Below are positions 843-20,500 of a stretch of DNA of 64,000 nucleotides, piece by piece. A program made the position numbers and the translations under genes. The stretch spans positions 6,348,839 to 6,412,838 of the forward strand of contig NC_087379.1 of NCBI RefSeq assembly GCF_963675165.1. Reading direction: 5' to 3'. The notes beneath the pieces are model-generated. The model saw nothing but the letters and a program-made list of their open reading frames with translations, had not been told where the DNA came from and searched no databases. Source of the stretch: Halichondria panicea (Eukaryota; Porifera; Demospongiae; Suberitida; Halichondriidae). Every line of letters begins with the position of its first letter. Within the stretch, counting starts at the first letter, position 1.

Positions 843-3800
843 CAAGAAGCTGCGATACGTCAGTGGGAAAGTGAGAGGTCACGAGTTGAACAGGAGGAGA
901 AGAGGAAGACCCTGGGGGCAGAAACACAACAGCATCAGGAGAGGGCAAAGTACCAAGACCAGCTGGCCAGGCGACGCTATGACGACCAGCTTTTACAACA
1001 GGTTAGCATTAGATCTATCCTACCTTTGATTAAGGTTGTCTCTAGTTTATTGTCCCCACCAGCGAATAATGACCACTGCCCTTAGAATTTAGTTTTACTG
1101 ACATGATTGTACAATCAAATGGTGTGAGTCTTTGAGAGTGACCATGTTTCTTTTATCACAGCGTCAGATGCAAGAGGAGAACTTAAGAAAACAAGAAGAG
1201 TCAGTGCAGAAACAGGAAGGCATGAGGAGAGGTAACAAATTACTACTCTTCAAAGTTTCTATAGAGCTTGATTTTTACAAGTCAGCATATTGCGTTCAGT
1301 TTCCAAATGATGAGAAACCATGACATGCTTTACCTGATTCTGAACACATTTTGTGGACTGTCTTTTCTCTGATGGAAATTATTACAGACGTTTTTGTTTC
1401 TGTAAATGGATTGAGCAATGTACTATTTTTCTGTCTTATAGTCACTGTTGATCTCGATTCTTTTGTGGTAGATAGTTTGCATCGTTTGTTGTCTGTTTTT
1501 CGTATCCAGGGACAATTGAGTACGAGGCAGAACTGAGGCACAAGAACGAGATGTCCAGAGTGCAGGCGGAGATACAGGGAAAGTGAGTGGACTGCACACT
1601 AGTGTTTGGCCATAATTATGAATTCAAAAAAACTTATCCTAACAATTTGCTTTTTGCCCCTGTGTGGAAACTTGAGACACCTTTCTGTTGTTGAGTGCAT
1701 TTCATATCTTGCACCCAGAGATGCACAAAGCTTGTCCATATTTCATATTTAATCCACTATGAGAGTGGATTCCTCTCTGTGTCGATATGTAGTTGATTGT
1801 TTCCTACGCCCCCACAGAACTAAGATGGAGAGAGAGAACCAGGACCTGGCACTGGAGCAGATACGACTCAAGTCTTCAGAGCAGAGGACCACTGTGCTGC
1901 AGAGCATCAAGTTAGTGACCAGTGTAATCCTGATAAAATAATACAGAAAATCGAACATATTTCACCTCTAAGTATGCTTGTTACAAATGTACATGTATTA
2001 ATATCATAGTGGTACATGTATCTGTTACTAAACCTCTTTCAGAGCTGCGGGCACTCTGCTAGGAGAGGGAGTTAGTAACTTTGTCACTGATTGGGACAAA
2101 GTCTCAGCAACTGTGAGTGATTAGCTAATGCAATGACTGCATACATGACATGGTATAATTATATGTAGCTCCACAAAGTAAATGCTCCTTCTTATTGGTT
2201 AAAGTTGCCTACCATACCGAGTCTGTACATAATTAAGTTCTGTGTCTTGGGAAGCTTGTTGCATGCTTGTACCCTCCACACACACACACAACAGGCTGCT
2301 GGTCTCACACTCATAGCGTTTGGTGTATACACGGCTAAGATGGGCACTGGGGTGGTGGCAAGATTCATTGAGGCACGACTGGGCAAGCCGTCTCTCATCA
2401 GGGAGACCTCACGTCTGTCACTGTTCCAGTCTATTAGACATCCGGTGAAGGCTACAAAGAAACTGTTTAAACGACCTTCTGACCCCCTGGCTGGAATCGT
2501 TTTTGAGGTCTGCGTGACTTTGTGCATTTAAGTGTAGTGTCATTCGGAACTGTTATCCGAGTTACAGAGTAGTACAGTTACTAGCCATGTCTCCCCGTGC
2601 CCATGCATTTCTCGCTCCTTATATATATTGCTTAGTTGCATAAGGTGTGCGTGTGGTATATAGTTTGTCAGCATTGTACTTTTTTACCACATGATGAGAA
2701 ACTATATGACATGCTTTACCTGATTCTGAACACATTGTGTGGACTGTCTTTCTCTGATGGAAATTACGTATTAAACGCATTTTGGTACTATAAATGAACT
2801 GAGCAATGTACATGCACTCAAATTACCTCCCACCATCATAAGTGTAAAGTGGTAACTTATTTTTGACCATTCATCTTGCCAAGTAACAATTTAGAATGCC
2901 TACTGTATAGCTAGCGGGTAAGTTCGTGGGGTAAAAAATTCGTTCAACTCGAGAACGGTGGTTTTCGTGAGTAAACATTTCGTTTAGTCTCGTGGCTGCA
3001 CGGCATTCCTACGTTCCAATAAGCCACACCTACGTTAAAATTTCGTGGAGGTCAGCCTGCCCACGAAAATAACGAATATTTTACCCCACGAAAATTACCC
3101 GCTATACGGTATCTAGAAAGCCAATAGTTGCATGCAACAATGCACACCAAGTAGCATGTAAATAGCCTCTGCACTCTGTCACCTTCCTCCATCATATACA
3201 ATTTTACGAACTGACGTATCTACACCCACACACACACACAGTCCAGTCATGAGGAGCGTCTTCGCTCGCTGTGCAAGGCCACCATCAACACACGGCAGAA
3301 CGGAGGTCTCTATCAGAACGTTCTCATGTATGGGCCCCCAGGCACTGGCAAAACTATGTTTGCCAAGGTACGTCTATATAATTATGCAGGATCCATTGTC
3401 ACATGATCATCACATGCTGTTTTAGAGTCTGGCGGTCCACTCTGGAATGGACTACGCAGTGATGACTGGTGGGGACATTGTACCACTGGGCAGTGATGGA
3501 GTGACGGCCATCCACAAAGTGTTTGACTGGGCGAATGCAAGCAGAAAAGGGTGAGAGAGTATGAGTATGTATGTATAGCATTCTGATTATATGTAGAGAG
3601 ATACATGGCCCCTTCAAATTACGATTAACCATGTCCAGTGCTAGCCATGTGAAATAGGATTTTCAGTAAGTGACCTTTTTTCTCACGATGGATCTTGATA
3701 ATGGCTCCCCTGTGTTTGTATTTGAGACCTTGATAACTCACCCTAATGTGTGGTTGTGACCAGATCATTCTTCATTGACCATGATTATGATCTTGCACTC

Positions 3801-5613
3801 CTAGGGTACTACTGTTTGTGGATGAGGCTGATGCATTCTTGAGAAAAAGGAGTGAGGTACGTGCACATGAACTGAATTGCGTAACATGTTCTACTGGTAT
3901 AGTTTGTTATGGGTTCAATTCCCACATGATGAGAAACCATGACATGCTTTACCTGATTCTGAACACATCTTGTGGACTGTCCTTCTCTGATGTGAATTAA
4001 GCGTGTCTAAAATTACATTGCAGACAGTATATACAGTGAAACCTGTTGTGGTCACCCTTTATACATTGTACAGGGAAAGCTGCTTACAGTGGTCACCCAG
4101 GCAACTATGGCTGTATTAATTACCAGAACACATGATACAAAAGATCGAATTTGTGGCTCATTAATCTGTGTTACATTATAAGAGCCGATGTAGCCTTCTG
4201 TAGTCAGTGAGTAAGGCATCGTGTTTTGCACACAGGTGTCCATTAGTGAGGACCTGAGGAGCACTCTCAATGCATTCCTCTACAGAACTGGAGAGTCTTC
4301 AAGAAAGTAAATGTTTTGGTTCTTGTTGTATCCTCTTGTATTCTGCTAATTTAAACTAATTGGTACATTTTGCATGTGTGTATTTATGCAGTTTTTTCAC
4401 ATACTTGTGTCTTTTTTTGTAGATTCATGTTGGTGTTAGCAAGTAACCAGCCGGATCAATTTGATTGGGCAATTAATGATCGTCTTGACGACCTTATCCC
4501 CTTTGATCTCCCAGGGGAAACTGAGAGACTCAGAATGCTTAAACTTTATTTCAGTCTGTTCGTTCTTGCTCCACCCAGAGTCACCTGGTGGAAAACACCG
4601 AAGTAGGCGCATTTGTGCATTTTCCCTTCTATTTAATGCATGATTCAGATGTTACTCTCACACACACACACTCTCACCCCCCCCCCCCCCCCCAAAACAC
4701 ACACAAAATTAAAGGAGCATTCCGTTACAAGAAGGGGTGGACTGGGAGAGGGAAATTGAGCAGATCTCAAAGAATATTATTGGTTTCTCTGGAAGGGAGA
4801 TCTCGAAACTGGCCATCTCTTGGCAGGTATGTGATAAACTTTATGCTACATAGATTCAGAGATTGTTGCTATAGTAATACAATGTACAATAGGGTATCCC
4901 TCACCACAATAAGTTTGCTGAGCTGTATAGACAGGCTGTTTATGTCTTTTTATGTAATAAAATCTGTGCAGAGTGTGCTACTCTAATGTGGCAGATGCCA
5001 TGTGAAGATTAAGCCCATGCTACATTTAGTAAATGTCTAAGCAGGCTTATATAGTGGGTGGAACCTCCATAAAACGGACACCATTGGGGAACAGCCTTTT
5101 GGCCGTTATAGAGAGGTGGTCTTCCTTGGGAGGTTTCGATTGCCAGCATGCTCTATGAGTCATTTCTTGCTGCAAATGAATCTTGGACCTTTGCTAACTG
5201 CTTCTTTAGCTCATACAAGCTTTGAAAAGGCTGTAGAGACAAGCTACAGCTATGTTTTCACGATTGTGCAAAATAATGCTATCTCAGCAATAATTTTCTG
5301 CTAATTCTGGGTGTGGTTGTCCGTTCTGAGAGGTTATTTTCCATTGCTAAAGCTGGTTGGGGACTAGAAAGCTGCTCGTTATACAGAGTAGAGAGGTGGT
5401 CGCTCCTGAGAGGTTGCTTTACATTGAAGTCATTGTAGTTTCAATCCGGTGGTCGTTAATGGAGGTTCCACTGTACTTTTCTTTATTTCCTCCATGCAGG
5501 CAAGAGCATTTGGGTCCAGTGAAGGTGTCCTTACCAAGGAGATATTGGACCACTGTGTGAAGGAGATGCTTGCACAACATGAACAGAAAGTACGCTGGCA
5601 GAAGGGACATTAG
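26..5613 (+). CDS. ATAD3: ATAD3 mitochondrial AAA+ ATPase (16 exons)
   Basis: Exons: 26-109, 177-285, 610-686, 840-1001, 1162-1231, 1510-1582, 1818-1910, 2043-2112, 2295-2507, 3242-3367, 3426-3550, 3805-3856, 4236-4306, 4423-4587, 4715-4826, 5500-5613. All phases join and give 571 aa, close to the roughly 590 aa of animal ATAD3. In order: a short N-terminal region, a long charged coiled coil (exons 3-7, with [13 protein letters not shown]), a hydrophobic segment ([15 protein letters not shown], exon 9), then the AAA+ domain with Walker A GPPGTGKT (exon 10), Walker B LLFVDEAD (exon 12) and the sensor region [16 protein letters not shown] (exon 14). Family knowledge: ATAD3 sits in the mitochondrial inner membrane and is linked to nucleoid organisation, lipid handling and contact sites. 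The exon 14/15 junction (LAPPRVTW / [10 protein letters not shown]) is the least certain. The start is the first ATG in a good family context; the promoter is outside the window. Confidence 0.95.
784..838. repeat. CA microsatellite in ATAD3 intron 3
   Basis: About 27 uninterrupted CA units run directly into the AG acceptor of ATAD3 exon 4, so the repeat replaces an ordinary polypyrimidine tract. Confidence 0.95.
1300..1425 (+). repeat. Intronic dispersed repeat, copy 1
   Basis: Contains GATGAGAAACCATGACATGC and the following ttacctgattctgaacaca, repeated nearly exactly in two other ATAD3 introns. It lies in intron 5. It has no coding capacity of its own; the open frames across it differ between copies. 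Confidence 0.8.
2680..2815 (+). repeat. Intronic dispersed repeat, copy 2
   Basis: Same sequence family and orientation as 1300-1425, in ATAD3 intron 9. Similarity extends on both sides of the core, ending near a shared GAGCAATGTAC. Confidence 0.8.
2901..3112. mobile_element. MITE with about 33-bp terminal inverted repeats
   Basis: The left end reads TACTGTATAGCTAGCGGGTA and continues into gttcgtggggtaaaa. The right end is its near-exact reverse complement (ttttaccccacgaaaa, then ttacccgctatacggta). Both ends begin with TA, consistent with a TA target site as in Tc1/mariner-derived MITEs. It is about 212 bp with no coding capacity and sits in ATAD3 intron 9. Confidence 0.85.
3915..4025 (+). 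repeat. Intronic dispersed repeat, copy 3
   Basis: Third copy of the family seen at 1300-1425 and 2680-2815, in ATAD3 intron 12, same orientation. The 3' part has diverged. Confidence 0.75.
4677..4693. repeat. 17-base poly-C tract near ATAD3 exon 15 acceptor
   Basis: Seventeen consecutive C are followed by an A-rich stretch and the AG acceptor proposed at 4713-4714. This is an unusual splice context. Confidence 0.9.
5055..5476. mobile_element. TIR element in ATAD3 last intron
   Basis: The left end GTGGAACCTCCAT and right end ATGGAGGTTCCAC are exact inverted repeats about 420 bp apart. Internal GAGAGGTGGTC motifs recur. No protein of its own. It ends some 25 bases before the acceptor of ATAD3 exon 16. 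Likely a non-autonomous DNA transposon. Confidence 0.75.
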
Positions 5614-5919: not shown

Positions 5920-6786
5920 TTAGGTATAATTCATGCAATCGCTTGAAGTATCCGTAAAGCAGAAATCGTTGATATCCAGTCCAACAGCTTGCTTGTAACT
6001 TGCTCCGATTTGCTTGTAAGCAGACGGATCCAGGATCCTATTTCTGGACATTACCAGGGAACCCTCATAGTTCCACTGGACAGTATTCCCACAGTAGTAC
6101 ATTATGATCCATGAACCATCAGCAGCTTTGTCCAATGGCCACCACGTCTCAGAATGATCGAGCCCCACATCATGATAGGTGAAGGAAATGCTTTCTCCTG
6201 GCGCTGTGTTGGGCATCACAAAATGTTGGTTGGTCACGAGGTAAAGGCTGCTGTTGACAAGGTAAGTCTCGTATTGAGGAGTGTACAGCCAAGCGGTTTC
6301 GTTGATCTGTTTAATTTCAATAGTTTGACAAGGGTAGCAATCGTACACCTTGTGATATCCGCGCTGCACCCACCATTTCCCGCCAAAGTCTTTTGTCGAC
6401 AGCTGCTTGACTGGTTTAACGTTCGGGGCTTTGCAGGTTGAAGGAATGGGAGGGAACGTAATGCACTTGTTGTCGGTGAGGCAACCCATGTACTCTTGAA
6501 ACGTCTTTTCTTCTCCGTATGTGAAAACACATTTGTTGGTACAGTTTTGAACGACAAACTTCTGCGGTGAAGTGTCCTTGTCCCAATCCTGGAAACACTT
6601 GTAAGAGCATCCTACAGCATCCCTGCATCCTTTATCTAATCCACACTCTCCAGAGGAACCAGTACAGTGCTTCAAAACACAGCTTCCATCTACACTAGGA
6701 CCAGCTCCTAGCTTTGGCTGCTCAGGCAGTTGGTGAGCTTGAGCTGTCAGCAATACTGCAGTTATGAGGGCAATAATTGGCAACAT
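5920..6786 (-). CDS. Secreted violaxanthin de-epoxidase-like protein 1 (VDE1)
   Basis: A single intronless ORF of 288 aa. Residues 1-17 are a signal peptide (MLPIIALITAVLLTAQA). Residues 36-108 form a Cys-rich domain with spacing C-x4-C-x6-C-x5-C-x5-C-x3-C, then CxxxC pairs. From about 118 onward is a lipocalin-like domain: DFGGKWWVQRGYHKVYDCYP, the ETWWPLDKAADGSWIIMYYC region, and a C-terminal FTDTSSDC. The domain order, cysteine spacing and motifs match plant/algal VDE as I know it, including an Asp just before the second Cys-rich turn. The Glu-rich C-terminal tail of plant VDE is absent. VDE removes epoxide oxygen from violaxanthin with ascorbate in the thylakoid lumen; here the protein would be secreted or vesicular, and substrate and activity are unknown. 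First of four paralogues. Confidence 0.85.
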   Translation of the reverse strand: MLPIIALITAVLLTAQAHQLPEQPKLGAGPSVDGSCVLKHCTGSSGECGLDKGCRDAVGCSYKCFQDWDKDTSPQKFVVQNCTNKCVFTYGEEKTFQEYMGCLTDNKCITFPPIPSTCKAPNVKPVKQLSTKDFGGKWWVQRGYHKVYDCYPCQTIEIKQINETAWLYTPQYETYLVNSSLYLVTNQHFVMPNTAPGESISFTYHDVGLDHSETWWPLDKAADGSWIIMYYCGNTVQWNYEGSLVMSRNRILDPSAYKQIGASYKQAVGLDINDFCFTDTSSDCMNYT

Positions 6787-6833
6787 TTTTCACTTTAGCT
6801 AGTATGCAATGCAACTCTCCAGCATGTAGCATC

Positions 6834-6846
6834 TTTATATGCACCA
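6834..6846 (-). promoter_or_regulatory. TATA-type promoter element of VDE1
   Basis: On the minus strand this reads TGGTGCATATAAA, 48 bases upstream of the VDE1 start. The identical 13-mer lies upstream of VDE4, and a one-step variant upstream of VDE3, so it is a shared core promoter. Confidence 0.6.
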
Positions 6847-6983
6847 TGCAGTGTTAGATAATAACATGTAATAAGACAGTGTGCACATCTACCACTACAA
6901 GTATTGCATAACTGCATGGTTTTGAATGTGTGCACTTGCAGAGGGATGACATCTCAATTAAGTGTTATTTGCAATATTAGTCT

Positions 6984-7094
6984 TCTCGGGCCATACTCCA
7001 CAATCTGATACTCCACAATCTGATACTGTAGTATCAAATTGTGGAATATGGCCCGCAAGATACAGTATCAGATTGTGGAGTATGGCCCGCGAGA
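6984..7094. repeat. Foldback element between VDE1 and VDE2
   Basis: The outer arms (TCTCGGGCCATACTCCACAA and its complement ending at 7094) pair almost perfectly. The unit containing CAATCTGATAC recurs three to four times in alternating orientation. Non-coding; probably a small transposon-derived hairpin in the 412-bp VDE1-VDE2 spacer. Nothing else is recognised in that spacer. Confidence 0.8.
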
Positions 7095-7198
7095 CTATGG
7101 CAATATGGGGATCACAATTTTAGACAGTGAAATGACATGTGCTACAAAATATCACAATTATACGTCACAAAATAATATACTTTACAGTCACAGTCTCT

Positions 7199-8080
7199 TT
7201 AGGTATTCATGCAATCGCTTGAAGTATCCGTAAAACAGAAATCGTTGATGTCCAGTCCGACAGCTTGCTTGTAACTTGCTCCGATTTGCTTGTAAGTAGA
7301 CAAATCCAGGATCCTAATTTTGGACATTACCATGGCACCCTCATAGTTCCACTGTGCAGTGGTCCCACAGTAGTACATTATGATCCATGATTCATCATCA
7401 GCTTTGTCCAACGGCCACCAGACCTCAGAATGAACGAGCCCCATGTCATGATAGATGAAGGAAATATTCTCTCCCGGCTCTGTGTTAGGAATCACAAAGT
7501 GTTGGTTAGTCACGAGGGTAAGACTGTTGTTAACGAGGTAAGTCTCGTATTGAGGAGTGTACAGCCAAGCGGTTTCGTTGATCTGTTTAAGCTCAATAGT
7601 CTGGCAAGGCCAGCAATCGTACAACTTGTGATATCCGCGCTGCACCCACCATTTCCCGTCAAAGCTTTTTGTCGACAGCTGCTTGACTGGTTTAACGCTT
7701 GATGCTTTGCAGGTACTAGAAATGGGAGGGAACGAAATGCACTTGTTATCAGTGAGGCAACCCATGTAGTCTTTAAACGTCTCTTCTTCTCCATATGTGA
7801 AAACACACTTGTTGGTGCAGTTTTGAACGACAAACTTCTGCGGTGAAGTGTCCTTGTCCCAATCATGGAAACACTTTGAAGAGCATTCTACAGTTTCCCT
7901 GCATCCTTTATCCAGTACACACTCGGCAGAGAGACCAACACAGTGCTTTTCAACACAGCTTAAATTTACAGTAGGATTGATTCCTAGCTTTGGCTGCTTT
8001 GGCAGTTGGCGAGCTGTGGAGGCAGTGGAGGCAACTAGCAATACTGCAGTTATAAGGGCAATAATAATTGGTCTCAACAT
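7199..8080 (-). CDS. Secreted violaxanthin de-epoxidase-like protein 2 (VDE2)
   Basis: Intronless ORF of 293 aa with a longer hydrophobic signal peptide (MLRPIIIALITAVLLVASTA). The Cys-rich domain and lipocalin-like domain follow as in VDE1, including SFDGKWWVQRGYHKLYDCWP and the terminal FTDTSSDCMNT. Differences are point substitutions spread over the gene, with an open frame and all domain cysteines kept, which argues for selection rather than decay. Several N-x-S/T sites suggest passage through the ER. Its promoter region is interrupted by the 66-bp palindrome at 8126-8191; a weak TATA-like element lies on the far side near 8249-8260. Confidence 0.83.
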   Translation of the reverse strand: MLRPIIIALITAVLLVASTASTARQLPKQPKLGINPTVNLSCVEKHCVGLSAECVLDKGCRETVECSSKCFHDWDKDTSPQKFVVQNCTNKCVFTYGEEETFKDYMGCLTDNKCISFPPISSTCKASSVKPVKQLSTKSFDGKWWVQRGYHKLYDCWPCQTIELKQINETAWLYTPQYETYLVNNSLTLVTNQHFVIPNTEPGENISFIYHDMGLVHSEVWWPLDKADDESWIIMYYCGTTAQWNYEGAMVMSKIRILDLSTYKQIGASYKQAVGLDINDFCFTDTSSDCMNT

Positions 8081-8116
8081 TTTTTGATTTCTAAGCTGTC
8101 ACACATCTATCATCAA

Positions 8117-8200
8117 GACTAAGGTTAGTCTCGAATACCCGCCTCAACCTAAAAGCTCAAGCTTTTAGGTTGAGGCGGGTATTCGAGACTAGACTAAGGT
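8117..8200. mobile_element. Perfect 66-bp palindromic insertion with 9-bp direct repeats
   Basis: Arms 8126-8157 and 8160-8191 are exact 32-bp reverse complements around a 2-base loop. The flanks 8117-8125 and 8192-8200 are both GACTAAGGT, which looks like a target-site duplication. The ends are TAGTCTCG / CGAGACTA. It is too small to encode anything. Located just upstream of VDE2. Confidence 0.9.
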
Positions 8201-8348
8201 CGCCTCAGGAGTAACTTCCAAACACCCACGCATTTTGGTCTAGTGATTTTTATGCCACATCATGATAAAATTAGCTATCAGTCCCTCATCAAACAATTAA
8301 TTTCACAAAGACATAATATACACATGACTTCACTTTCCCTATATCTCT

Positions 8349-9224
8349 TTAGGTATTCATGCAATCGCTTGAAGTATCCGTAAAGCAGAAATCGTTGATG
8401 TCCAGTCCGACAGCTTGCTTGTAACTTGCTCCGATTTGCTTGTAAGCAGACGGATCCAGGATCCTACTTTTGGACATTACCAGGGAACCCTCATAGTTCC
8501 ACTGTGCAGTGTTCCCGCAGTAGTACATTATGATCCATGATCCATCAGCAGCTTTGTCCAATGGCCACCACGTCTCAGAATGATCGAGCCCTACATCATG
8601 ATAGGCGAAGGAAATATTCTCTCCTGGCGCTGTGTTGGGCATCACAAATTGTTGGTTAGTCACGAGGTGAAGACTGTTGTTGACAAGGTAAGTCTCGTAT
8701 TGAGGAGTGTACAGCCAAGCGGTTTCGTTGATCTGTTTAAACTCAGTAGTCTGACAAGGGTAGCAATCGTACACCTTGTGATAACCACGCTGCACCCACC
8801 ATTTCCCGCCAAAGTCTTTTGTCGACAGCTGCTTGACGGGTTTAACGTTCGGTGCTTTGCAGGTTCGAGGAATGACAGGGAATGACATGCACTTGTTGTC
8901 GGTGAGGCAACCCATGTAGTCTTGATACGTCTGCTCTTCTCCATATGTGAAAACACATTTGCTAGTGCAGTTTTGAACGACAAACTTCTGCGATGAAGTG
9001 TCTTTGTCCCAATCCTGGAAACACTTGGAAGCGCATTCTATAGCCTCCCTGCATCCTTTATCCAGTATACACTTGACAGAGAGACTAACACAGTGCTTTT
9101 CAACACAGCTAAAATTTAGAGCAGGACCACCTCCTAGCTTCAGCTGCTCAGGCAGTTGGTGAGCATGAGCTGTGGAGGCAATCAGCAACAATGCAGTTAT
9201 GAGGGCAACAATTGGTCTCAACAT
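8349..9224 (-). CDS. Secreted violaxanthin de-epoxidase-like protein 3 (VDE3)
   Basis: Intronless, 291 aa from the ATG at 9224. The open frame extends 12 codons further, but the methionine at 9224 matches VDE2 and starts a clean signal peptide (MLRPIVALITALLLIASTA). The Cys-rich domain and lipocalin-like domain are intact (DFGGKWWVQRGYHKVYDCYP; ETWWPLDKAADGSWIIMYYC). The C-terminal half is nearly the same as VDE1 and the N-terminal half is closer to VDE2, consistent with tandem duplication and some gene conversion. Function as for VDE1: family clear, substrate unknown. Confidence 0.84.
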   Translation of the reverse strand: MLRPIVALITALLLIASTAHAHQLPEQLKLGGGPALNFSCVEKHCVSLSVKCILDKGCREAIECASKCFQDWDKDTSSQKFVVQNCTSKCVFTYGEEQTYQDYMGCLTDNKCMSFPVIPRTCKAPNVKPVKQLSTKDFGGKWWVQRGYHKVYDCYPCQTTEFKQINETAWLYTPQYETYLVNNSLHLVTNQQFVMPNTAPGENISFAYHDVGLDHSETWWPLDKAADGSWIIMYYCGNTAQWNYEGSLVMSKSRILDPSAYKQIGASYKQAVGLDINDFCFTDTSSDCMNT

Positions 9225-9273
9225 TCTCACTTCTTTTCTGTTTTTAAAGTGCACCCTCATGAGGCATGCATGC

Positions 9274-9286
9274 TAAATATGCACCA
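9274..9286 (-). promoter_or_regulatory. TATA-type promoter element of VDE3
   Basis: Minus strand TGGTGCATATTTA, about 50 bases upstream of the VDE3 ATG; a variant of the 13-mer found exactly at VDE1 and VDE4. Confidence 0.45.
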
Positions 9287-9499
9287 CAGTGTACCAGTAT
9301 ACCACCAGAGTGTACACAGTAAGATGGCCAGTAGATATTGTGCATGCATGTGATTGGCATGCATTGCATAGCTAATGACCTTGTAACAAAGTTTCAATAT
9401 AACAAGTGTTACAGTAGAAATCTAATTTCAGATGAGAAAATATATATATGCTAGAGATGTAAAAGGCTATCATGTGCATGCCTGCCACTATATACATGA

Positions 9500-10710
9500 A
9501 CTAATAAAATTAACCTGCACTTGTGGAGGGATAATATACAAGTGTATCTCAAACAGCTATCTATAATAATTTATTACTGAGCATTCCATCAGTGTATAGT
9601 GTTTCAGTCTCAGGTACGTTTTTCGGAATCTTGTAGTAACTACAAAATCTGCATAAAAAATCTGCATAAAGAGATTAACAGTTGTATTGGGAATTCGACA
9701 ATCCTTAGGTATACAATCTACACAAACGGGGATCTAGCCTTATAATATAGGGTCTTCACTCTGTATAATTTTATATACTTGGCCCTAAGAGGGGAGGGGT
9801 TACAAATAACACTGGTACTCACGACTGAAGAGTTGAGAAGGTTCTGTGAGTCATTGAGCATCTTTTCATTGTTCTCTTCAGTGTCTCACAGCTGACTCTC
9901 ATACTCCTCCAGTCTGCAGTGAGGGATTAACAAGCGAGTATTCATACAAGTACCTTAAATTCCATTGCATGGATGAAGCGAAATACATCATAGAAAAATG
10001 TACCACTATAGTCTGCTCCTGAGTCCCTCACTGTCTCTGTGGTCCTCTTGTATAGGTCCTCCAGTCGAGAGGGGAGGTCAGACAGCTCCGGGAGAGGGGA
10101 GGGGGGATCGGGAGAAGGTACAATGTGCTAACACGAAACAAGTCAGTTTAGTCAGCTACATGTATACACAATAATTATTATATATAACTAATAATCATCT
10201 CCAAGTTTAAAGTGCAGTAACTTCACTCTTAAAGCGCCCATATCTACCAATCAATAGATTCTTAGTTAACTTTAACCACACATGCATTGACTAGTAGCCC
10301 TTACCTGATTGCTGAGTTTTGAGACCTCCTGATCAGCCAGCTGAGGCTCTGCAGGGGTGCTGCTTTGGGAAGGAGTCTCTGCTACCATGAGTTGGTGACG
10401 TCGCTGCAGGTGACGTGCCATGAGGGCGGGGCTCTCTCTGGACACACTCACAGCACCCACCTCATAGAAGTCATCCGGCGAGGACCTGCATGTGATGAAC
10501 AGTGAATGATATAATGACACAAATGATCAAATAAGTCAACAGTAACGGGCCTAACATTTTCGAAGTGGTAGAACACCTAAATTAATTTTGCCTCCTAATA
10601 ATTTAAGAGTTTGTGTATAAAGGTGGTTATATAGTATACCATCATGCATGCATGCATGCGCATTGACCAGTGTGGGCACATCACTGAATCAACAGAAATT
10701 CTTAGGGTTA
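9500..10710 (-). pseudogene. Truncated duplicate of Rab11-FIP gene (exons 13, 8, 7, 6)
   Basis: The segment aligns by eye with the intact gene at 14.5-18.7 kb. 9540-9652 matches exon 13 with indels; 9828-9915 matches exon 8; 10011-10092 is a shortened exon 7; 10303-10492 matches exon 6 closely and is still open. Flanking intron and 3' sequence is also duplicated. The part corresponding to exons 9-12 (about 14.75-17.53 kb) is missing, so this is a DNA-level copy with an internal deletion, not a retrocopy. No start or full frame remains. Confidence 0.85.
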
Positions 10711-10778
10711 TAGGTTAATAATGATTCTACGTACATGCAGGGTTGGCTTGATGATTTTTTCTTTTCCATGTGTAATAG

Positions 10779-10880
10779 GCAAGGGCCGTTGGGTCCAGTG
10801 AAGGTGTCCTCATAAAAGGAGATACTGGACCACTGCATGCATGTGTGAAGGAGATGCTTGCACTAACATAGACGTACAGA
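10779..10880 (+). pseudogene. Copy of ATAD3 last exon, fragment A
   Basis: Matches ATAD3 exon 16 (5500-5613) across its length, including the upstream pyrimidine-rich intron end (cttttccatg). GGGTCCAGTGAAGGTGTCCT is identical. Small insertions (an extra A, and a gcatgcat block) break the frame. It lies directly beyond the FIP fragment, mirroring the ATAD3-tail/VDE/FIP order of the intact locus. Confidence 0.85.
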
Positions 10881-11776
10881 AAGTATACTAACTGTGTGAC
10901 AGAGCTGTGAGATCTAAACAAGTGTGCCAGGCATATAGCAACTGCATGCATGAACTATACCTATATATTTGCAAATGTTGATTGTTGTGCATGCAATTAT
11001 ATATATTGGCCACCATTGGATTGACTGCTTCAACATTGAACTAGATACCTTTAAGAGTCTCTTCAGTGCAAACAATAATTATTGTTTATTTCCGTAGTTT
11101 TTTGCCGACAGAGATTCTTAAACATGCAGCAGCATGCAGTTGAGTCGGTTCTATATAATTTTTATGGTAAGTTGTATTAAGTTTTTAATGGCCTTGAATA
11201 TAATTATCTCTTATTATGTAAACCTCAGCATGCAGTCTTTTATTATTGTTACATAAGAACCCACTTGTGTGCATGGCCAGTAACTGCATGCTATATACCT
11301 GGCATTGCATATACCTTGACCTTGAATATATCTATTAAACCACCTTCAATGCATAATACTTAAATATTGTTAATTCTGAGTGGGCAGTGCAGTGGCTATA
11401 TGCACACGCATGCATGTGATAATAATATCACCTAGATCTGTATATATATATATATAGCCTTGCATGTATAATATTGGAGCCTCGTTTCCAGGCTAAGTTG
11501 TCTCTAAAATAATGCTATAGGTCGACAACTTACTACTGTTAATTCCTTTAAAGAAAAATCGGTTTTTATGTACTCAAAGTCAGATGTTAAAAAGGCTGTA
11601 TATGTGCCAACCGTGTTACCCGGCTAACCCTACATGAACGAATGTGCACTTGTGACAACAAAAACTACAGTGCCTGTAGAGTAGTTGCATGTACTTATAT
11701 CTAAGTAAGTGTGCTGATGCTATTGTCTCAAGTGCTTAAAATTTGCATGCATGCATGCATGCATGGCTATAATGTT
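10881..11776. other. Gene-free stretch with VDE-flank remnants
   Basis: No gene is seen. Around 11040-11070 the sequence (acctttaagagtctcttca) matches the flank just downstream of VDE4 (13045-13065). Around 11560-11600 it matches the VDE4-FIP spacer (tatgtactcaaagtcag). The VDE ORF expected between them is absent, so this appears to be a duplicate unit that lost its VDE gene. Confidence 0.55.
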
Positions 11777-12120
11777 GCTTAGCAAACTGAAGTGTTTCAG
11801 TCTCTGGTTATATTAATTACGTATAGAGTAAAACCATGTTTGAATTTGAGGGAGCAAAAGGCTTAAGCCCCTCTAATTTCCCCCTGAAATTAACCCTGCA
11901 GGCAGGCCTATACCTGTCTGAGTCTGTGCGTCCACTTAGAGAAGCCATGCCTTCCTCTCGGTTCACAGCTGCATGCTCCCGTGTCCAAGTGCATTAACAA
12001 AGGACAGCTGTGCCTTGAGTGAACTCTGCGTCCTTCATCTCTTTTGTGCCTGTTCTTGAGACACCTCCAGTTGGTACTGCAAGTCCAACATCTTAGTCAT
12101 GCTTACTTTCGTGCGGAGGA
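11777..12120 (-). pseudogene. Second decayed Rab11-FIP fragment (exons 13, 10, 9)
   Basis: 11777-11815 recalls exon 13 (gtttcagtctctgg). 11911-11990 matches part of exon 10 and 11995-12118 matches exon 9 (tacaagtccaac type string: TGGTACTGCAAGTCCAAC). Exons 10 and 9 are joined after an internal deletion, and stop codons and indels are present. More degraded than the copy at 9500-10710. Confidence 0.75.
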
Positions 12121-12829
12121 TGTTTATACGGTTAAAGAATGTCATTAATCTATGAATCTACCAACCGCTTACTCCTTGAATAGTGTCTTATGTAATGAAA
12201 ACCATGCAAAACATGCTCCTTATGTCTTCTTATGTAATGGAAACAGTGCAGAACATGACATGCAAGTTTAGGGTAAATGGTGAAAACATGTAATATGCAT
12301 GGTATAGCTGGCACCCTGCACCCCTTCTCTTTCAAAGGTCTTATATTATAATTACATTCAGAGATATGTACTACCCACTTTTTTTTAAGTTAGTATCTTA
12401 AGATGCCTGAGGTTTAGGGTATAGAAGAGGGTATTGTGAGACGGAACCAATTATGAAACAGCTATTTAAAACAGGAGTGCTTCAGCCATTCTTTCGGCAT
12501 TTAATTATAGTAATAGCACAATCATGCAGCGTTAATTGCAATGGTGTCTCGTAATACAATACCCCTAGCTGTCTCATAATGCCCAAACCACTTTAAACAC
12601 TAAAGAGCTAGCATTAGCTGCAAACAAAACACTGTAACTAGTATTTTTTTGCTTACATGCAAAGCCAATTGACCATAGTAGTTAGTGAACAGGCTATTTA
12701 GCTCGATCACCAATCAAAGGCTCTTGATGCAATACAGGGGAGTACAGGTCTTATAGTACCCCTTGTATACCCTACCACATTTTTTAAAGGTTAAATGAAT
12801 CTATTGGGCAGGCTGATCCTTTTGTGTAC
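12121..12829. other. Gene-free stretch between duplicate units
   Basis: AT-rich sequence with short open frames only and no family match. A short direct repeat (cttatgtaatg with aaaacatgc / aacatgaca context) occurs around 12188-12260. Nothing else supportable. Confidence 0.5.
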
Positions 12830-12935
12830 ATAGGGAAGAGCCTTTGGGTAGTTAAGGTGTCGAGATTAATTAGTGGACCACTGATCGACTGTGAAGCAGT
12901 ATACTTATATAATTATAGATAGAAAGTTATAGGCC
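12830..12935 (+). pseudogene. Copy of ATAD3 last exon, fragment B
   Basis: AGGGAAGAGCCTTTGGGTAG and the following ttaaggtgtc ... agtggaccactg ... tgtgaag retain the order of ATAD3 exon 16 with many substitutions and deletions. It lies 250 bases from the 3' end of VDE4, the same relation the intact exon has to VDE1. Confidence 0.7.
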
Positions 12936-13187
12936 GTATGACCGAGCTGTGAGATCAAGATCTATGCCAGGCATACTATAAATACAGCAACTGAACCACC
13001 TCTATAGCGATATCTAGCAATTGATTTGTTAACAGATTGCAAATTATAGATACGTTAAAGAGTCTCTTCAAACAATTAATTATAGGGAGGGATCACAATT
13101 TCAGAATGAAATATAGCTAGCTATAATTATACAAAAATTGTTTTTACTCAAGTCACAATATTTACATACAGTCCCATAGCTGTCTGT

Positions 13188-14051
13188 TTAGGTATCCATG
13201 CAATCGCTTGAAGTATCCGTCAAGCAGAAATCGTTGATGTCTAGTCCGACAGCTTGCTTGTAACTTGCTCCGATTTGCTGGTAAGCAGATGGATCCAAGG
13301 TCCTACTTCTGGACATTACCAGGGCACCCTCAGAGTTCCACTGTGCAGTGGTCCCACAGTAGTACATTATGATCCATGAACCATCAGCAGCTTTGTCCAA
13401 TGGCCACCACGTTTCAGATTGGTCGAGCCCCTGGGCACGATAGGTGAAAGAAATCTTTTCTCCTGGCGCTGTATCGGGCATCACAAATTGTTGGTCGGTC
13501 ACGAGGTAACGACTATTGTTGACAAGGTATACCTCGTATAGAGGAGTGAATAGCCAAGCTGTTCCATTCAGTGTAAAATCAAAATTTTGGCAAGGATAGC
13601 AATCGTACAGCTTCTGATAGCCGCGCTGCACCCACCATTTCCCGCTAAAGTCTTTCATCGACAGCGGCTTGATAGGTTTGACGCTTGATGCTTTGCAGGT
13701 TGAAGGAATGGGAGGGAGTGTAATGCACATGTTGCTCGCGAGGCAAAATAAGAAGTCTTGAAATACTTTTCCTCGTCCATATGTGAATTGACACTTGTTG
13801 GTGCAGTTTTGAGCGGCAAATTTCTGAGGTGAAGGGTCCTTGTCCCAATTGAGGGCACACTGTTCGACGCATTCTAGAGTTTTCCTGCATCCCACATCCA
13901 GTACACAGTTGACAGAGAGTGAAGGGCAGTGCTCTTCAACACACTTTACATCTATGCCAGCTCCTAGCTTTGGCTGCTCAGGCAGTTGGTGAGCTTGAGC
14001 TATAGAGGCAATCAGCAACACCGCAGTTACGAGGGCAACAATTCTCAACAT
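13188..14051 (-). CDS. Secreted violaxanthin de-epoxidase-like protein 4 (VDE4)
   Basis: Intronless ORF of 287 aa with a signal peptide (MLRIVALVTAVLLIASIAQA). It is the most divergent paralogue, especially in the Cys-rich domain (CVEEHCPSLSVNCVLDVGC; TYGRGKVFQDFLFC), yet every domain cysteine is kept. The lipocalin-like part (DFSGKWWVQRGYQKLYDCYP) is kept too, and the C-terminus (FCLTDTSSDCMDT) matches the others. It is separated from VDE1-3 by 4 kb of duplicated FIP/ATAD3 debris, so it belongs to an older or outer duplicate. Likely secreted; substrate unknown. Confidence 0.84.
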   Translation of the reverse strand: MLRIVALVTAVLLIASIAQAHQLPEQPKLGAGIDVKCVEEHCPSLSVNCVLDVGCRKTLECVEQCALNWDKDPSPQKFAAQNCTNKCQFTYGRGKVFQDFLFCLASNMCITLPPIPSTCKASSVKPIKPLSMKDFSGKWWVQRGYQKLYDCYPCQNFDFTLNGTAWLFTPLYEVYLVNNSRYLVTDQQFVMPDTAPGEKISFTYRAQGLDQSETWWPLDKAADGSWIIMYYCGTTAQWNSEGALVMSRSRTLDPSAYQQIGASYKQAVGLDINDFCLTDTSSDCMDT

Positions 14052-14110: not shown

Positions 14111-14123
14111 TTTATATGCACCA
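14111..14123 (-). promoter_or_regulatory. TATA-type promoter element of VDE4
   Basis: Minus strand TGGTGCATATAAA, 60 bases upstream of the VDE4 start and identical to the VDE1 element. Confidence 0.6.
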
Positions 14124-14572
14124 AAGGTTAGGTAAGAATCCATAAGATGTAGATCTGCTATAGCCATTGCACATGTGATAATTACAGGGAGTTGCATAAT
14201 ATTGACCCTTATCCTATAATAATTATTGTATCCTATAATAGGAGTACAATAATATGCTAGATTATAGTTTATAGTATTATGCACGCAGCAGTTTTATAAC
14301 GTTAGATAAGAATCCTGACCAGTTGGCTGCACATGTACATGCATGCATGCAGATTACATGGTATTGCATAATTTGATTTTGACCTTATAACAAAGTTTCA
14401 AGAGAGGTATTGATAACAAGATGTTTATGTACTCGAAGTCATACTGAGGTTCAGATGAGTAGCAAAAAGAATTAAGTATGCATGCATGCAACTGTGTTAA
14501 AAAGACTGCGTGCTCCTACATGAACTAATAAAATAAACCTGCACTTGTGGAGGGATGACATATACAACAAAA

Positions 14573-17500
14573 CTAGTGTATCTCAAGTAGTTCTGGGTAC
14601 TTCTCTATAATGTTGCTGAGCAGTCCGTCAATGTAGCGTTTCAGTCTCAGGTTACGTTCTTCGGAATCTTGTAATGCTTTCAAAATCTGCAGAAAAGTAC
14701 CAATACATCAAAAGTTGAATATTGGAAATTTAAGGTCAATCCTTAGATAACAATTTATACACACACATGCATCCGTGTGCAAAACTGTAACTGTGACTAT
14801 ACTCTAAGCCAATAAAAATATTTTTTTATGGTTACCTCGTCTTTGGAAGCATTGTCCATTTCAGCTGCTAGTGAATCTTTATTCCTGGCCAACAGTTCTT
14901 TGCCCTCCTGTAAGAATCGGGCCTGCATCTCCTCATTCTTTGTGTGGGCCAGCTCAAGCTCCTATAAGGGATCATCAGCATGCAATGAGTATATAGGCTG
15001 GTATACGCTTGCATAAAGTCAAATAAAAATTATACTGCATACTTTACTTGTACAAACCATTGGATACACTGATTACATGTATAGGATTGCAGTGTGTTTG
15101 CAAACTGTTAATCAGTTATATTTCTGCAGGGAAAGCCCATTTATTTTCAAGAAATTTACTGGACAGATGCTTTTAGCCTTTTCTCTGTATGTGCATGTGT
15201 TTCATACATGTACATGTATAACAATGTATGACAATGTATGAAAAGTCATATGCATTGATATTGTCATTTGAAAAATTATCACTTTCACCGCGTTTTGTCT
15301 GTCAGCGTAAGTAAGTAAGTAACATTCTTGGAAAGCATTTCTCATTGGAAATTCTTGACTACAACCTGGGCCATGGGCGGTTTTTCAGAATTGCGTTTGC
15401 TTTCACGAAGCAGATTACCTCTCAGGCTCCACATCTTTTACCTTCGAGGCTATACAACTACAACCAAGAGTATATAATAGAGAGAGTGTGTCAAACGTAT
15501 ACTGTGTATCAGATGTATCCAGATAGTTAACGTGACTTCCTGTACATGGGCTTGGAATTTGCACACTGACCAATCCAAGTGTAATCTATCAAAAAAGTAG
15601 ATTACATCACCCACACTTCAGTCAGTGTGCAAATTCCAAGCCCGTGTAAGTCACGTTACTCTCCAGATACATCTGACACACAGTATGCCTACGTTTGATA
15701 CTCTAGCTCTCTCTATTATAATAAAAGCACCACAGGTGCTGGTGCCTCGGTGGAGATGCCAAAGCTACATATAAAGCTACTGAAAGCTTTTATACACTCA
15801 TAATTATAATGAACATTTTTTGCATGCAAACTCAAAGAGTAGGTAATGATCAACCATAATTGTTGTTAAAAACGATCGATGCCAAAAGTTCAAGTCTAAA
15901 ATTAATGGCTGCATCAGCAGAGCCTTGCAGCTCTCTTCTCACTCTTGCAGCTACCAATAGCTAGCGTTCTAGTGCAGAGCTAACTACTAAGTAGAGTAGC
16001 AACACTCGGTAAACAAGTTTGGCTACGTGCTCTTCTGAAAAGGCTGCAATGGCATTCCAAGTAGATCTAGGCATAACAAAACTAGGCATAACTCGAGAAC
16101 AAAGCATTATTTTGCAAATCCACGAATTATAATCCAAGTAAACATGACTAGAAGCCTATATAAACTCTTACTTGCACTTGATTCATACTTGAGCAGCTGT
16201 AGCAGTCTACACAGACACAGACACACAGACACACAAACACACTACCGTATACCTCGCTTGCGCATGCGCACCGAGGCATAATAATTATACAATTCTGCTA
16301 TCTTTAAATGACTGCACAGCAACGTCACATGAGATGAGCGTGGCTGTGACACCTCGCATTTGAATCTATACAAACCTCCTTTTCTTCAACTTATAGTTAG
16401 CTGGAACGCTGGCTAAATAGCCAGCGTTCCAGTGCAGAGCTAACTATAATATTATAATATTGGTAGCTGCAAGAGTGAGAAGAGAGCTGCAAGGATCTAC
16501 TGCACTGATGCAGCAGCCATTAATTTTAGACTTTGTACTTTTGGCATCATTCATGGTCGATCATTTCCCACTCTTTCAGCTAGCTTCCCTGTGATTACAG
16601 ATACGACATTGAAAGGTACCTTTTTAAGAGTGTCTATCTCCCTGCCCATGTCAGACGCTGTGATGGATTGACTGTCTCTCTCCTTTTGAGCCTCCTCACA
16701 CTCGCACTGCAACTGCTGCACCTGACAGTCCCTCTCATGAACCTCCTATAAAGGTGTGTGCAGGCCGTGTGTGGGGGTGTATATTAAAGAGCCGTACTGA
16801 TAATGTAAGATGGATCAACACTACACAGATTGAGCTCTCTTAAATATACAACGTATTATTTTATGTAAGACCGCTTTTTTATTCTGCTTTATAATTAACC
16901 TGTACAGATAACACAAAAAAACCATAATTATGCTGTCCCAGTTGTGGATTTACCTTTAAAAATCAACACCACCTACCTGTCTGAGTACGTCCCCTTCAAG
17001 AGACCACGCCTCCCTCTCGGTTCGCAGCTGCTCCCGTGTCCTCCGCAGCTCCTCCTCCACTCTCCTACGACCATCATCAGTCTCACTCAACTCATCCTCT
17101 CGAGATGACAACTCCTGGAGGCAAGGGAGTCACAATCAAACAGTGTACAAATAATTATATTCACCTAAACGTTAATCTAACACGAGACAAAGATACTCGA
17201 GAAATCCTAGATATCAAAATGCAGCATACTGCTAGACAGTACAAAAACTCACCTCTTGAACAAAGGACAACTGTGCCTTGAGAGTAAACTCTGCATCTTT
17301 CATCTTCTGTGTCTGTTCTTTAGACACCTCCAACTGGTACTGCAAGTCCAACACCTTCTGCTCACTCTCGTGCCGAACTTTGACCTACATGTTACGATGT
17401 AGGAACAATAGCTAATAGCTACACACAAGCTCACAGTACAGGATGGAGGAAAGAAACTGATTTTAAAGCTCTACTGTGAAACCCCTCGATATACATGTAC

Positions 17501-20500
17501 TTTGTTTCCGCGATTATACAGAGAATGTTTTGGTTGAGGGTTTGTACACAAACAGGGGGATCTAGCTTTATGAGGAGTTCAGTCTGGGACTTGGCCCTAA
17601 GAGGGAAGGGGTTACAAATAACACTGGTACTCACGAGTGAAGAGTTGAGAAGGTTCTGTGAGTCGTTGAGCATCTTTTCATTGTTCTCTTCAGTGTCTCG
17701 CAGCTGACTCTCATACTCCTCCAGTCTGCAGTGAGGAATGAACGAGTGAGTACAGTACAGGGTGTGCATTTCAGTTTTCGGATAAATGCAAAAAATTTTA
17801 CCATTCATACAAAATCGCACGTACGTGTCTTAAGCAAAACCACCTCTTGTAGTTTACACATCAAACTTGGCTGCAAATCTACATGTAGCAAGGGACATGC
17901 CGTAACACTAGCTGTGCGTGCCCACCTCGTTTTGAGGTCCACATTCTCTCTCTTTAGTCTGCTCCTGAGTCCCTCACTGTCTCTGTGGTCCTCCTGTAGG
18001 TCCTCCAGTCGAGATGTGAGGTCAGACAGCTGGGGGAGGGAGTACAATGTGTTAATACGATACCTATAGAAGCAAGTCAGCTACACAATAATCATCTCTT
18101 AAAAGGCTCCAGTTTAAGGTGCAGCAAATCACTAACATGTCCTCCACTACAGTCAGGATACAGGGTAAATAGTGATGCTAAGTGGCCACGCCACCATTGC
18201 TTAGATCTTATGATATGATTATGGAGGTCAATTACATGGATCAAATATCTTTAACCACACATGCATCGACTAAGTAGCCCTTACCTGATCGCTGAGTTTT
18301 GAGACCTCCTGATCAGCCAGCTCTGCAGGGGTACTGCTTTGGGAGGGAGATTCTGCTACCATGAGCTGATGACGTCGCTGCAGGTGACGTGCCATGAGGG
18401 TGGGGCTCTCTCTGGACACACTCACAGCACCCACCTCATAGAAGCCATCCGGCGAGGACCTGCGATGAATGAAAAATGATCAAAGTGTCAACAGTGATTT
18501 AGATGCCTAGAATTTTCAAAATGGTGGCAATCCCCAAATTTGCCTCTTTAACAGCATAACTATGTGGTTTGTCAAGAGGTGGTTAGTACCACCGCTGGAC
18601 CAGTGTGGGCACATCCCTGAATTAACAGGCATTAATTCCTAGGGGGTTAGCTAGTTCATACCCTTAAAGAATGAATTAACTAAAAACCATGTGTTATACG
18701 TGTATGTAAGTAATGAATGACGTCTTTCCTAATAGACACAGACGATAGTGCTTCAATGAATTTGATAGTACATGTAGGTACTAACTCACGATGAGTGGGA
18801 GCGTCCAACAGCACCTCTCGTGCTGGAGTCGGTCTCCTCTGATGACTCCAAAACTAACTCCTCCTCTACACATTCACCTCTGAGAAGCAAATAGGAGAGT
18901 ATAAAAGTATAATTTTTTGATATTGGTATATCAACACAGCTAGTTATGTACATGGATTGTTGTTTCCCATTTGGAAGTATGGATTTCCTTTCTACACAGT
19001 GTACCAATACTAAAGTAAACTTCCCCCAACATGTCCAGTACAGGGTAGCCCCTCTGGACAATAACATGGACTCTACCCACACTGCTGTATATACCCAGTA
19101 CCCGAAACATTCTAACCACACACTTACTTTGGAGCACTGGAGTGGTAGCCATTGGAGAGGTATGCAGTGAATCGATGGTCTAGAGGGTATATGTCCTCAC
19201 TGGAGAAGGCACTGTCATAACCACCGGTAGAGCCAACCTGGGGGAGGAGAGAATAGCTCACTACACAGGACTTTGTGGTATTTCCTTGCTAACTGTGTGG
19301 TGATGTCATGTATGCAGTGGCCACATTAGCTGAAAACAGTACATGTAGCGATACAGTTACAGAGTACATGTACACATTAATGTAAACAAACAGTGAGAGC
19401 TTACGCACAAATACGTGCATTACAGGTATGGACAAACATTCTAAGAGATCACTGCCGCTGTACATATAAGGTCTTCATTCTTGAATGAATCTAGAGAACA
19501 TCGCTACCATCCACTCACCTCTGCGTTGCTGTTGTCCTCAGTGAAGGATAACAGGGAACACAAGCTAGCACTACTGGAGCCAGGCAACTGGTGGTGCTCT
19601 GTACAGACAAACAATGAGTGAGTGGGAGGGAATAAATCAAACCCTAAACTATAATTATAATGTGTTTCATGCTATCTACAACCATAGTTACAGTCACTAA
19701 GCAGTAACATACATATAGCATGTATGTCAAATAGATCAATAATTATACTTGTCATGAATGAGAGGTGTATAGTGATGGAACCACTCACCCAGAATGTAGG
19801 TTTCTATTCCCTGACAGAACATGGAGAATGAGATGTGCTGGGAGTTGGCCGGGTCCATTTCATGAATTAGCATGTCCACTTCCTATAGTCAAGCACTATA
19901 CTCAAATCCATACAAGCACAACAAGTATACATCATTGAAAGCATGACTGTGTAAATACGTATCAATCTCATGTGTGATAAACATTTCCTCAACAATCTGC
20001 CTGCAATGATGAGGCCAGTGCTAATCAGTGCTAACCATAAAACAAAGAATCATTACATGTATATATGCAGCCGTTTAGACTACACCACAACACACCCAAA
20101 ATGCTTGTAAGAGACCAAACAAATTACATGTACATGTACCTGGTAATCTCTCAACCACTATGACTATTGGAGACAATAAACACTCACACAGTGGGCCAGC
20201 CACTCTCTCTCTCTCTCTCTATTCAACTACCACCCACTACATGTATAATAATAGCAACAAAGGATGTGGCACTCGTTAACACAAGTGTGGGAGGTGTGAG
20301 CTGTTAGAGCAAGCAAGGATTTTGAGGTTATACATTTTTGTAACATGTATATGCTTTTCTCAAGGAAGACAAAACAGAAATACTTTGATTACACATCGAT
20401 GCACCTTAATAACTGCAACTATTTCCAAACCACCTTCTAATGAATCCTTTAAAAGTGTGTGCATTGCCATACTTGTCTTTTGTTCACAACAACCATTCAC

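Follow-up and report, generated by a model that had tools for sequence, protein, structure and literature searches.

A tandem array of violaxanthin de-epoxidase family genes on a chromosome of the sponge Halichondria panicea

Violaxanthin de-epoxidase (VDE), which removes epoxide groups from carotenoids in plants and algae, is treated in a 2026 review as an enzyme of photosynthetic eukaryotes (PMC13181403), and a vitamin C review mentions it for plants only. Two related groups, VDL and VDR, are described as having glutamate at position 177, and VDL1 as an active enzyme (PMC13181403). The fusion of the Cys-rich and lipocalin domains has been dated to an early time after primary endosymbiosis, because in that account it is known only from photosynthetic eukaryotes (Coesel et al. 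2008, PMC2483416). Here we describe a tandem array of four VDE-family genes in a stretch of DNA from the sponge Halichondria panicea. The window, by which we mean the whole 64,000-nucleotide stretch that was analysed (C3:6348839-6412838), lies within an 8,483,533-base contig, C3, of a genome of 131.5 Mb in 39 contigs.

VDE-like sequences from animals have been reported before. One metazoan VDL-like sequence, an expressed sequence tag (EST) of the oyster Crassostrea virginica, was placed without support and suspected of being algal contamination (Coesel et al. 2008, PMC2483416), and the 2017 genome paper of the Manila clam, Ruditapes philippinarum, gives VDE as one of five reductase families exclusive to this species among four molluscs (PMC5499747). 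Compared by description, these reports share with ours the presence of a VDE-like sequence in an animal. They differ in that the oyster EST is a suspected contaminant and the clam VDE is merely listed among reductase families, whereas the genes described here form a chromosomal array. No characterised animal VDE was found in the open-licence PMC literature, judged mostly from listings, and the main text of the Terpios hoshinota genome paper mentions neither violaxanthin nor VDE. The statement in the initial annotation of this DNA that no characterised animal member is known agrees with that literature, although animal sequences themselves had been seen.

Family identity of the array genes

The initial annotation had pointed to four open reading frames between positions 5920 and 14051 of the window and likened their products to VDE. 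All four are intact and on the minus strand, each as one open frame, so that, for the coding parts, the genes are intronless as claimed.

5920..6786, minus strand: gene 1, VDE-family, 288 amino acids; hydrophobic N-terminus, Cys-rich domain and VDE lipocalin domain; PF07137 at 101.5 bits
7199..8080, minus strand: gene 2, VDE-family, 293 amino acids; architecture as gene 1; PF07137 at 99.0 bits
8349..9224, minus strand: gene 3, VDE-family, 291 amino acids counted from Met13; PF07137 at 103.1 bits; the frame from an earlier ATG extends to 9260 and gives 303 amino acids
13188..14051, minus strand: gene 4, VDE-family, 287 amino acids; PF07137 at 102.5 bits; the most divergent of the four

A search with PF07137, a check named beforehand, gave a significant match in each gene (99.0-103.1 bits; curated cut-off 25.7 bits), extending from profile position 2 or 3 to position 241 of 242. 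PF07137 is the only Pfam family above cut-off in any of them, an additional Defensin_propep match in gene 4 falling below its own cut-off. The four genes are almost certainly members of the VDE superfamily, in which a lipocalin domain follows a disulfide-rich N-terminal domain. By phmmer, the solved structure closest to gene 3 is the lipocalin domain of Arabidopsis VDE (3cqn/3cqr, E 6e-11). When the lipocalin domains of the array and of a fifth copy (see below) were combined into a profile, 3cqn/3cqr was again best (4.5e-13) and bilin-binding protein came next (4.8e-5); hhalign matched this profile to the Arabidopsis stretch with a probability of 97.1%. The four proteins are predicted to have a VDE-type lipocalin fold.

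Two other identities were considered and rejected, namely a plain lipocalin (no Pfam lipocalin family was reported at E up to 1) and a chance similarity to VDE. Neither gene 3 nor the fifth copy matched any NCBIfam family. PF07137 was matched in none of 14 control genomes, and scans of viral contigs and genome contigs returned no relatives; these scans used short degenerate patterns, and hence are weak evidence that prokaryotes and viruses lack the family. Motifs quoted in the initial annotation hold in part: genes 1 and 3 contain GKWWVQRGYHKVYDCYP exactly and genes 2 and 4 a version with two residues changed, ETWWPLDK is present in genes 1, 3 and 4 but reads EVWWPLDK in gene 2, and TDTSSDC occurs in all four.

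Genome-wide, PF07137 matched at five places (6 of 6 candidates scored), comprising the four window genes and one locus on contig C13 (44.2 bits). Searching the genome with the gene 4 protein led to the same five places.

L005 1253-2124, contig C13: fifth VDE-family copy, Cys-rich and lipocalin parts in different frames

The Cys-rich part of this copy runs from an ATG at 1253 and has a hydrophobic N-terminus, a short tandem repeat stands where the frame changes, and the lipocalin frame taken by itself scores 45.2 bits, above the 25.7-bit cut-off. Where the copy is readable, it has no intron. The frame change could reflect a pseudogene, a polymorphism or an error of assembly; the earlier claim that all frames are kept holds for the four window genes but not for this copy outside the window. 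Its lipocalin domain is 26-27% identical to those of the window genes and 25% identical to that of Arabidopsis VDE, and it has P117, E177 and C199 (Arabidopsis numbering) in common with the four.

A hydrophobic stretch stands at the N-terminus of each window protein (best 12-residue mean hydropathy 2.9-3.4), with nothing comparable later in the chain (best 19-residue mean 0.4-1.2). Judged by hydropathy, these stretches fit the signal peptides proposed earlier, and the four proteins are probably secreted. The disulfide-bonded cysteines in the first domain of spinach VDE are residues 9, 14, 21, 27, 33, 37, 46, 50, 65 and 72 (Hallin et al. 2015, PMC4412432), a numbering from which we derive intervals of 4-6-5-5-3-8-3-14-6. 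In all four window proteins, the ten N-terminal cysteines follow intervals of 4-6-5-5-3-17-3-15-5; six of nine are identical to those of spinach, two are off by a single residue and the remaining one exceeds its spinach counterpart by nine, bearing out the likeness to plant VDE in cysteine order that was noted earlier. The first eight cysteines after the N-terminal stretch of the fifth copy (4-6-5-5-3-8-3) are spaced as in the spinach enzyme. The sixth spinach disulfide joins C118 to a late cysteine, given as 284 in the abstract and 248 in the discussion (PMC4412432); C118 and a cysteine near the last residues are kept in 5 of 5 copies. In all five, moreover, the R199 of Arabidopsis is replaced by a cysteine (YCG), which phmmer aligns with the YYC of bilin-binding protein. 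Beside C199, there is a further cysteine near the C-terminus. Each window gene encodes 16 cysteines, an even count that could allow all of them to be paired.

Among the four window genes, the lipocalin domains are 74-93% identical (74-79% for gene 4 versus genes 1-3), and pairwise synonymous divergence (dS) is 0.17-0.33. The ratio of nonsynonymous to synonymous divergence (dN/dS) over the full length is 0.42-0.61, below 1 in all six pairs (one-sided Fisher P values of 4e-5 to 4e-3), in line with the earlier claim of selection on the protein; for the lipocalin domain it is 0.16-0.54, again in 6 of 6 pairs (P values of 9e-6 to 0.048). Pairs drawn from four genes are not independent.

Active-site residues and a proposed function

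To read the residues, the five lipocalin domains were aligned with the Arabidopsis 3cqn stretch and interpreted according to the 2026 review (PMC13181403). Arabidopsis numbering was set by this alignment, and of the 18 residues named in the review 17 agree with it. The exception is L135, which reads as I here, so that either the numbering or the alignment is shifted by one at this point or the residue differs in the review. In that review, D177 and Y198 are catalytic, W179 binds violaxanthin, and D114 and Q119 serve ascorbate. D114, C118, Q119, W179 and Y198 are identical in all five copies, the fifth included despite its 26-27% identity to the others. At position 177, every copy has E instead of D, the state described for VDL and VDR. 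The pH-sensing residues H121, D117, H168, D206 and Y214 are changed in every copy, and D98 is kept in three of the five; several pH-sensing residues are described as varying among true VDEs as well (PMC13181403). The Glu-rich C-terminal domain, ∼100 residues in plant VDE, is missing. The chain of the window proteins stops close to the end of the lipocalin domain, and among its final 40 residues 5 or 6 are acidic. The N-terminus, set against the chloroplast targeting of VDE sensu stricto, is by hydropathy a short hydrophobic stretch.

Because D177, the pH switch and the Glu-rich tail all depart from VDE, the window genes are, by their residues, not VDE sensu stricto. The combination of E177 and Y198 without a Glu-rich tail is that of VDL. 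However, the lipocalin domain is near that of plant VDE in size and lacks the VDL-type enlargement (VDL being known here by description), and so by domain size the genes would not be classed as VDL either.

Our best guess, held tentatively, is that the genes encode secreted, ascorbate-using enzymes of carotenoid epoxides; we infer substrate, ascorbate use and catalysis from sequence. In such an enzyme, the lipocalin barrel would bind an epoxy-xanthophyll derived from dietary or symbiotic algae, with W179 packing on the carotenoid. The glutamate at the D177 position would protonate the epoxide, and ascorbate lying near D114, Q119 and Y198 would supply electrons. Alternatively, the epoxide might be isomerised without net reduction, as in VDL1. 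A thylakoid-type acid switch would not be needed, since the His/Asp pH switch and the Glu-rich tail are missing.

Other parts of the genome and earlier work on animal carotenoids fit such a role. ALO-family matches occur at three places in the genome and would fit an ascorbate-forming L-gulonolactone oxidase, an enzyme reported from sponges and cnidarians (Wheeler et al. 2015, PMC4396506). The RPE65 family, which includes carotenoid oxygenases, has 16 matches on two contigs. Cleavage of the epoxy bond has been described as a major conversion of carotenoids in animals, the enzymes and genes of which were not then known (Maoka 2011, PMC3093257). Marine animals are described as cleaving the epoxy groups of algal carotenoids, and a fucoxanthin origin is assumed for some acetylenic sponge carotenoids (Maoka, PMC3093257, PMC6949322). 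The window genes may be linked to these animal epoxy-carotenoid conversions.

Several observations weigh against an enzyme of carotenoid epoxides. T112 is kept in none of the five copies, F123 in three, and Q153 and F155 in four. In active plant VDE, D114 is bonded by R138; the residue aligned with R138 is L or V in all five copies, in a stretch of uncertain alignment. Lipocalin identity to Arabidopsis VDE is 25-26% for each copy. AlphaFold models, made from five-row alignments, had unusably low mean predicted local distance difference test (pLDDT) scores (37.9 for the full length, 31.3 for the lipocalin domain), and hence the fold and the placement of residues rest on alignment. For the Cys-rich part plus signal peptide, dN/dS is 0.48-0.87, with P values below 0.05 in two of six pairs and of 0.10-0.34 in the other four. 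Finally, the frame of the fifth copy is broken.

The main rival explanation, which we regard as rather doubtful, is that the genes encode secreted, non-catalytic lipocalins that bind carotenoids or other pigments and employ the VDE scaffold in transport or coloration, much as the lipocalin fold serves crustacyanin and bilin-binding protein. That bilin-binding protein is the next structural relative after VDE (4.8e-5) speaks for binding and against the proposed enzyme, and the cysteine that takes the place of R199 in all five copies aligns with its YYC, another Cys standing shortly before the barrel. In bilin-binding protein itself, the equivalent cysteine pair forms a disulfide. Loss of the pH-switch residues also favours a binding role, and most lipocalins are described as merely binding (PMC13181403). 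On the other hand, 5 of 5 copies, the distant fifth among them, keep D114, Q119, Y198 and an acidic residue at 177, for which a protein that only binds would have no obvious need.

It is less probable still, and in our view unlikely, that the same chemistry is performed on some other hydrophobic substrate (a lipid or sterol epoxide, or a symbiont or defence metabolite), with no carotenoid role. In favour of this explanation, several positions credited with stabilising violaxanthin vary (F123 and, in the fifth copy, Q153 and F155), and VDR, which shares E177, is listed without a known substrate (PMC13181403). Conservation of W179 in all five copies, the residue proposed to pack on the carotenoid, argues the other way.

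Growth, setting and origin of the array

Copies of pieces of a neighbouring gene, probably Rab11-FIP, lie between genes 3 and 4:

9493..9727, minus strand: decayed copy of the RBD-FIP exon region, 73% to 14517-14764
9777..10505, minus strand: partial copy of the Rab11-FIP neighbour; pieces 9777-9940, 10006-10094 and 10267-10505 match within 17589-18479 at 90-95%

In addition, 11911-12117 matches parts of 16974-17376 at 78-82%. Because these neighbour-gene copies lie between two members, the array grew by DNA-mediated tandem duplication. The copied pieces are not wholly collinear with their source, and rearrangement must therefore have occurred besides duplication. Tandem expansion, as put forward in the initial annotation, is borne out by these pieces, whereas retroposition, offered there as a possible source, is rejected as the cause of the array; the source of the first intronless gene is a separate matter.

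The neighbours named earlier, ATAD3 and Rab11-FIP, were confirmed by domain matches. On one flank, ATAD3_N is matched at 2169-2528 (55.8 bits) and an AAA fragment at 3215-3403 (22.8 bits); on the same side, frames at 3791-3997 and 4355-4603 gave no Pfam match above cut-off. On the other flank, the RBD-FIP domain of the Rab11-FIP gene lies at 14.5-14.7 kb (44.1 bits). To judge by place and strand, the 17.6-18.5 kb region probably belongs to the same gene as this exon, and frames at 17.4-18.1 kb and 10.3-10.5 kb gave no Pfam match above cut-off. Beyond these flanks, Pfam searches found NNMT-type, annexin and GH18 pieces, followed by sushi repeats. The gene content of the chromosome is animal. 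Because the array lies inside an 8.48 Mb contig, between animal-type genes, with copies of a duplicated neighbour between its members, contamination is rejected, in keeping with the earlier statement that the genes are chromosomal; for this animal VDE array, that reading is removed.

Putative promoter elements, recognised by eye, are found upstream of three of the genes:

6834..6845, minus strand: TATA-like GGTGCATATAAA upstream of gene 1
9274..9285, minus strand: related GGTGCATATTTA upstream of gene 3
14111..14122, minus strand: TATA-like GGTGCATATAAA upstream of gene 4

Genes 1 and 4 have GGTGCATATAAA in common, ∼50-70 bases 5' of the ATG, and GGTGCATATTTA stands at a matching distance from Met13 of gene 3. 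Alignment with the other three genes and this spacing (GGTGCATATTTA is too near the first ATG) suggest that gene 3 probably starts at Met13, the ATG ending at 9224, which matches the start of the others.

Upstream of gene 2, a palindromic repeat replaces the TATA-like site. This near-perfect palindrome (8119-8198) lies just upstream of the gene, has two 39-nt arms that are 92% complementary, and stands where genes 1, 3 and 4 carry the GGTGCATAT site. It is a dispersed repeat, with at least 80 genome matches (both strands counted; 40 of 185 candidates scored), and therefore gene 2 may have had its promoter displaced by a fold-back element or by one resembling a miniature inverted-repeat transposable element (MITE). 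Between genes 1 and 2 lies another, nested inverted-repeat element (6984-7092). It has few relatives in the genome, with 5 candidates giving 10 matches (self and both strands counted).

As to origin, a single, rather recent transfer out of an alga or an algal symbiont, followed by tandem spread, would be compatible with any function. In its favour, photosynthetic eukaryotes are where VDE is best known, there are no introns in the coding parts, and the 2026 review invokes horizontal transfer of VDE among algae (PMC13181403). Nevertheless, we consider such an event very unlikely, since the fifth copy is as distant from the four as is Arabidopsis VDE. This unlinked copy (26-27% to the four, 25% to Arabidopsis) shares P117, E177 and C199 with them, and thus the family either split long ago or entered more than once. 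Moreover, the third-position GC of the four genes (0.50-0.52) falls within the range of 0.37-0.67 seen for 12 peptidase C1 frames of the genome (12 listed of 16 loci). An old transfer from an alga is possible.

The peptidase C1 family has 77 matches in the genome, of which 30 were taken up for inspection. One group of these genes (L020, L021 and L023-L027) forms an array with long open frames at ∼493-521 kb of contig C8. In L024, Ser replaces the catalytic Cys (GSCGSSWAF), and this Ser-bearing copy is nearest cathepsin L; inspection of peptidase C1 loci (18 on the plus strand, 8 on both strands) revealed no silicatein. A COX1 fragment on another contig (L011, C1:5280527-5280718) has a 64-position match with two TGA codons and is probably a nuclear copy of mitochondrial DNA.

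Significance and comparison with known systems

If active, the four genes would be candidate animal enzymes for the remodelling of algal carotenoids, and they provide something to assay. An animal array also bears on when the Cys-rich and lipocalin domains were joined. We entertain, as a speculation that is more likely wrong than right, the idea that the VDE family belongs to an old gene set of animals or opisthokonts, with secreted carotenoid-epoxide enzymes in heterotrophs and one branch used by photosynthetic lineages for the xanthophyll cycle. Were this so, the oyster and clam sequences would be real genes, and enzymes of this kind would underlie the metabolism of epoxy-carotenoids in filter-feeding animals.

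Among the systems to which the array can be compared is the insect lipocalin bilin-binding protein (1bbp), which resembles the window proteins in its lipocalin domain (4.8e-5) and YYC cysteine, the match being much weaker than that to VDE. Bilin-binding protein is also not known to have a Cys-rich domain. VDR has E177, Y198 and ten cysteines in common with the window proteins (PMC13181403), but is described as being without the PF07137 signature, and diatom VDR as differing in cysteine positions (Coesel et al. 2008, PMC2483416), versus PF07137 matches of ∼100 bits here. VDL1 and VDL2 of diatoms, haptophytes and other chromalveolates are alike in E177, Y198, W179 and the lack of a Glu-rich tail; compared by description, their lipocalin domain is considerably larger (Coesel et al. 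2008, PMC2483416). Plant and algal VDE, represented by Arabidopsis 3cqn/3cqr, differs in having D177, the pH-switch residues H121, D117, H168, D206 and Y214, and a Glu-rich tail, whereas the window proteins have E177, a secretory-type hydrophobic N-terminus and extra lipocalin cysteines, at 25-26% identity. With VDE they nonetheless share PF07137 along its whole length, the order of the ten cysteines, C118 together with a cysteine late in the chain, and D114, Q119, W179 and Y198.

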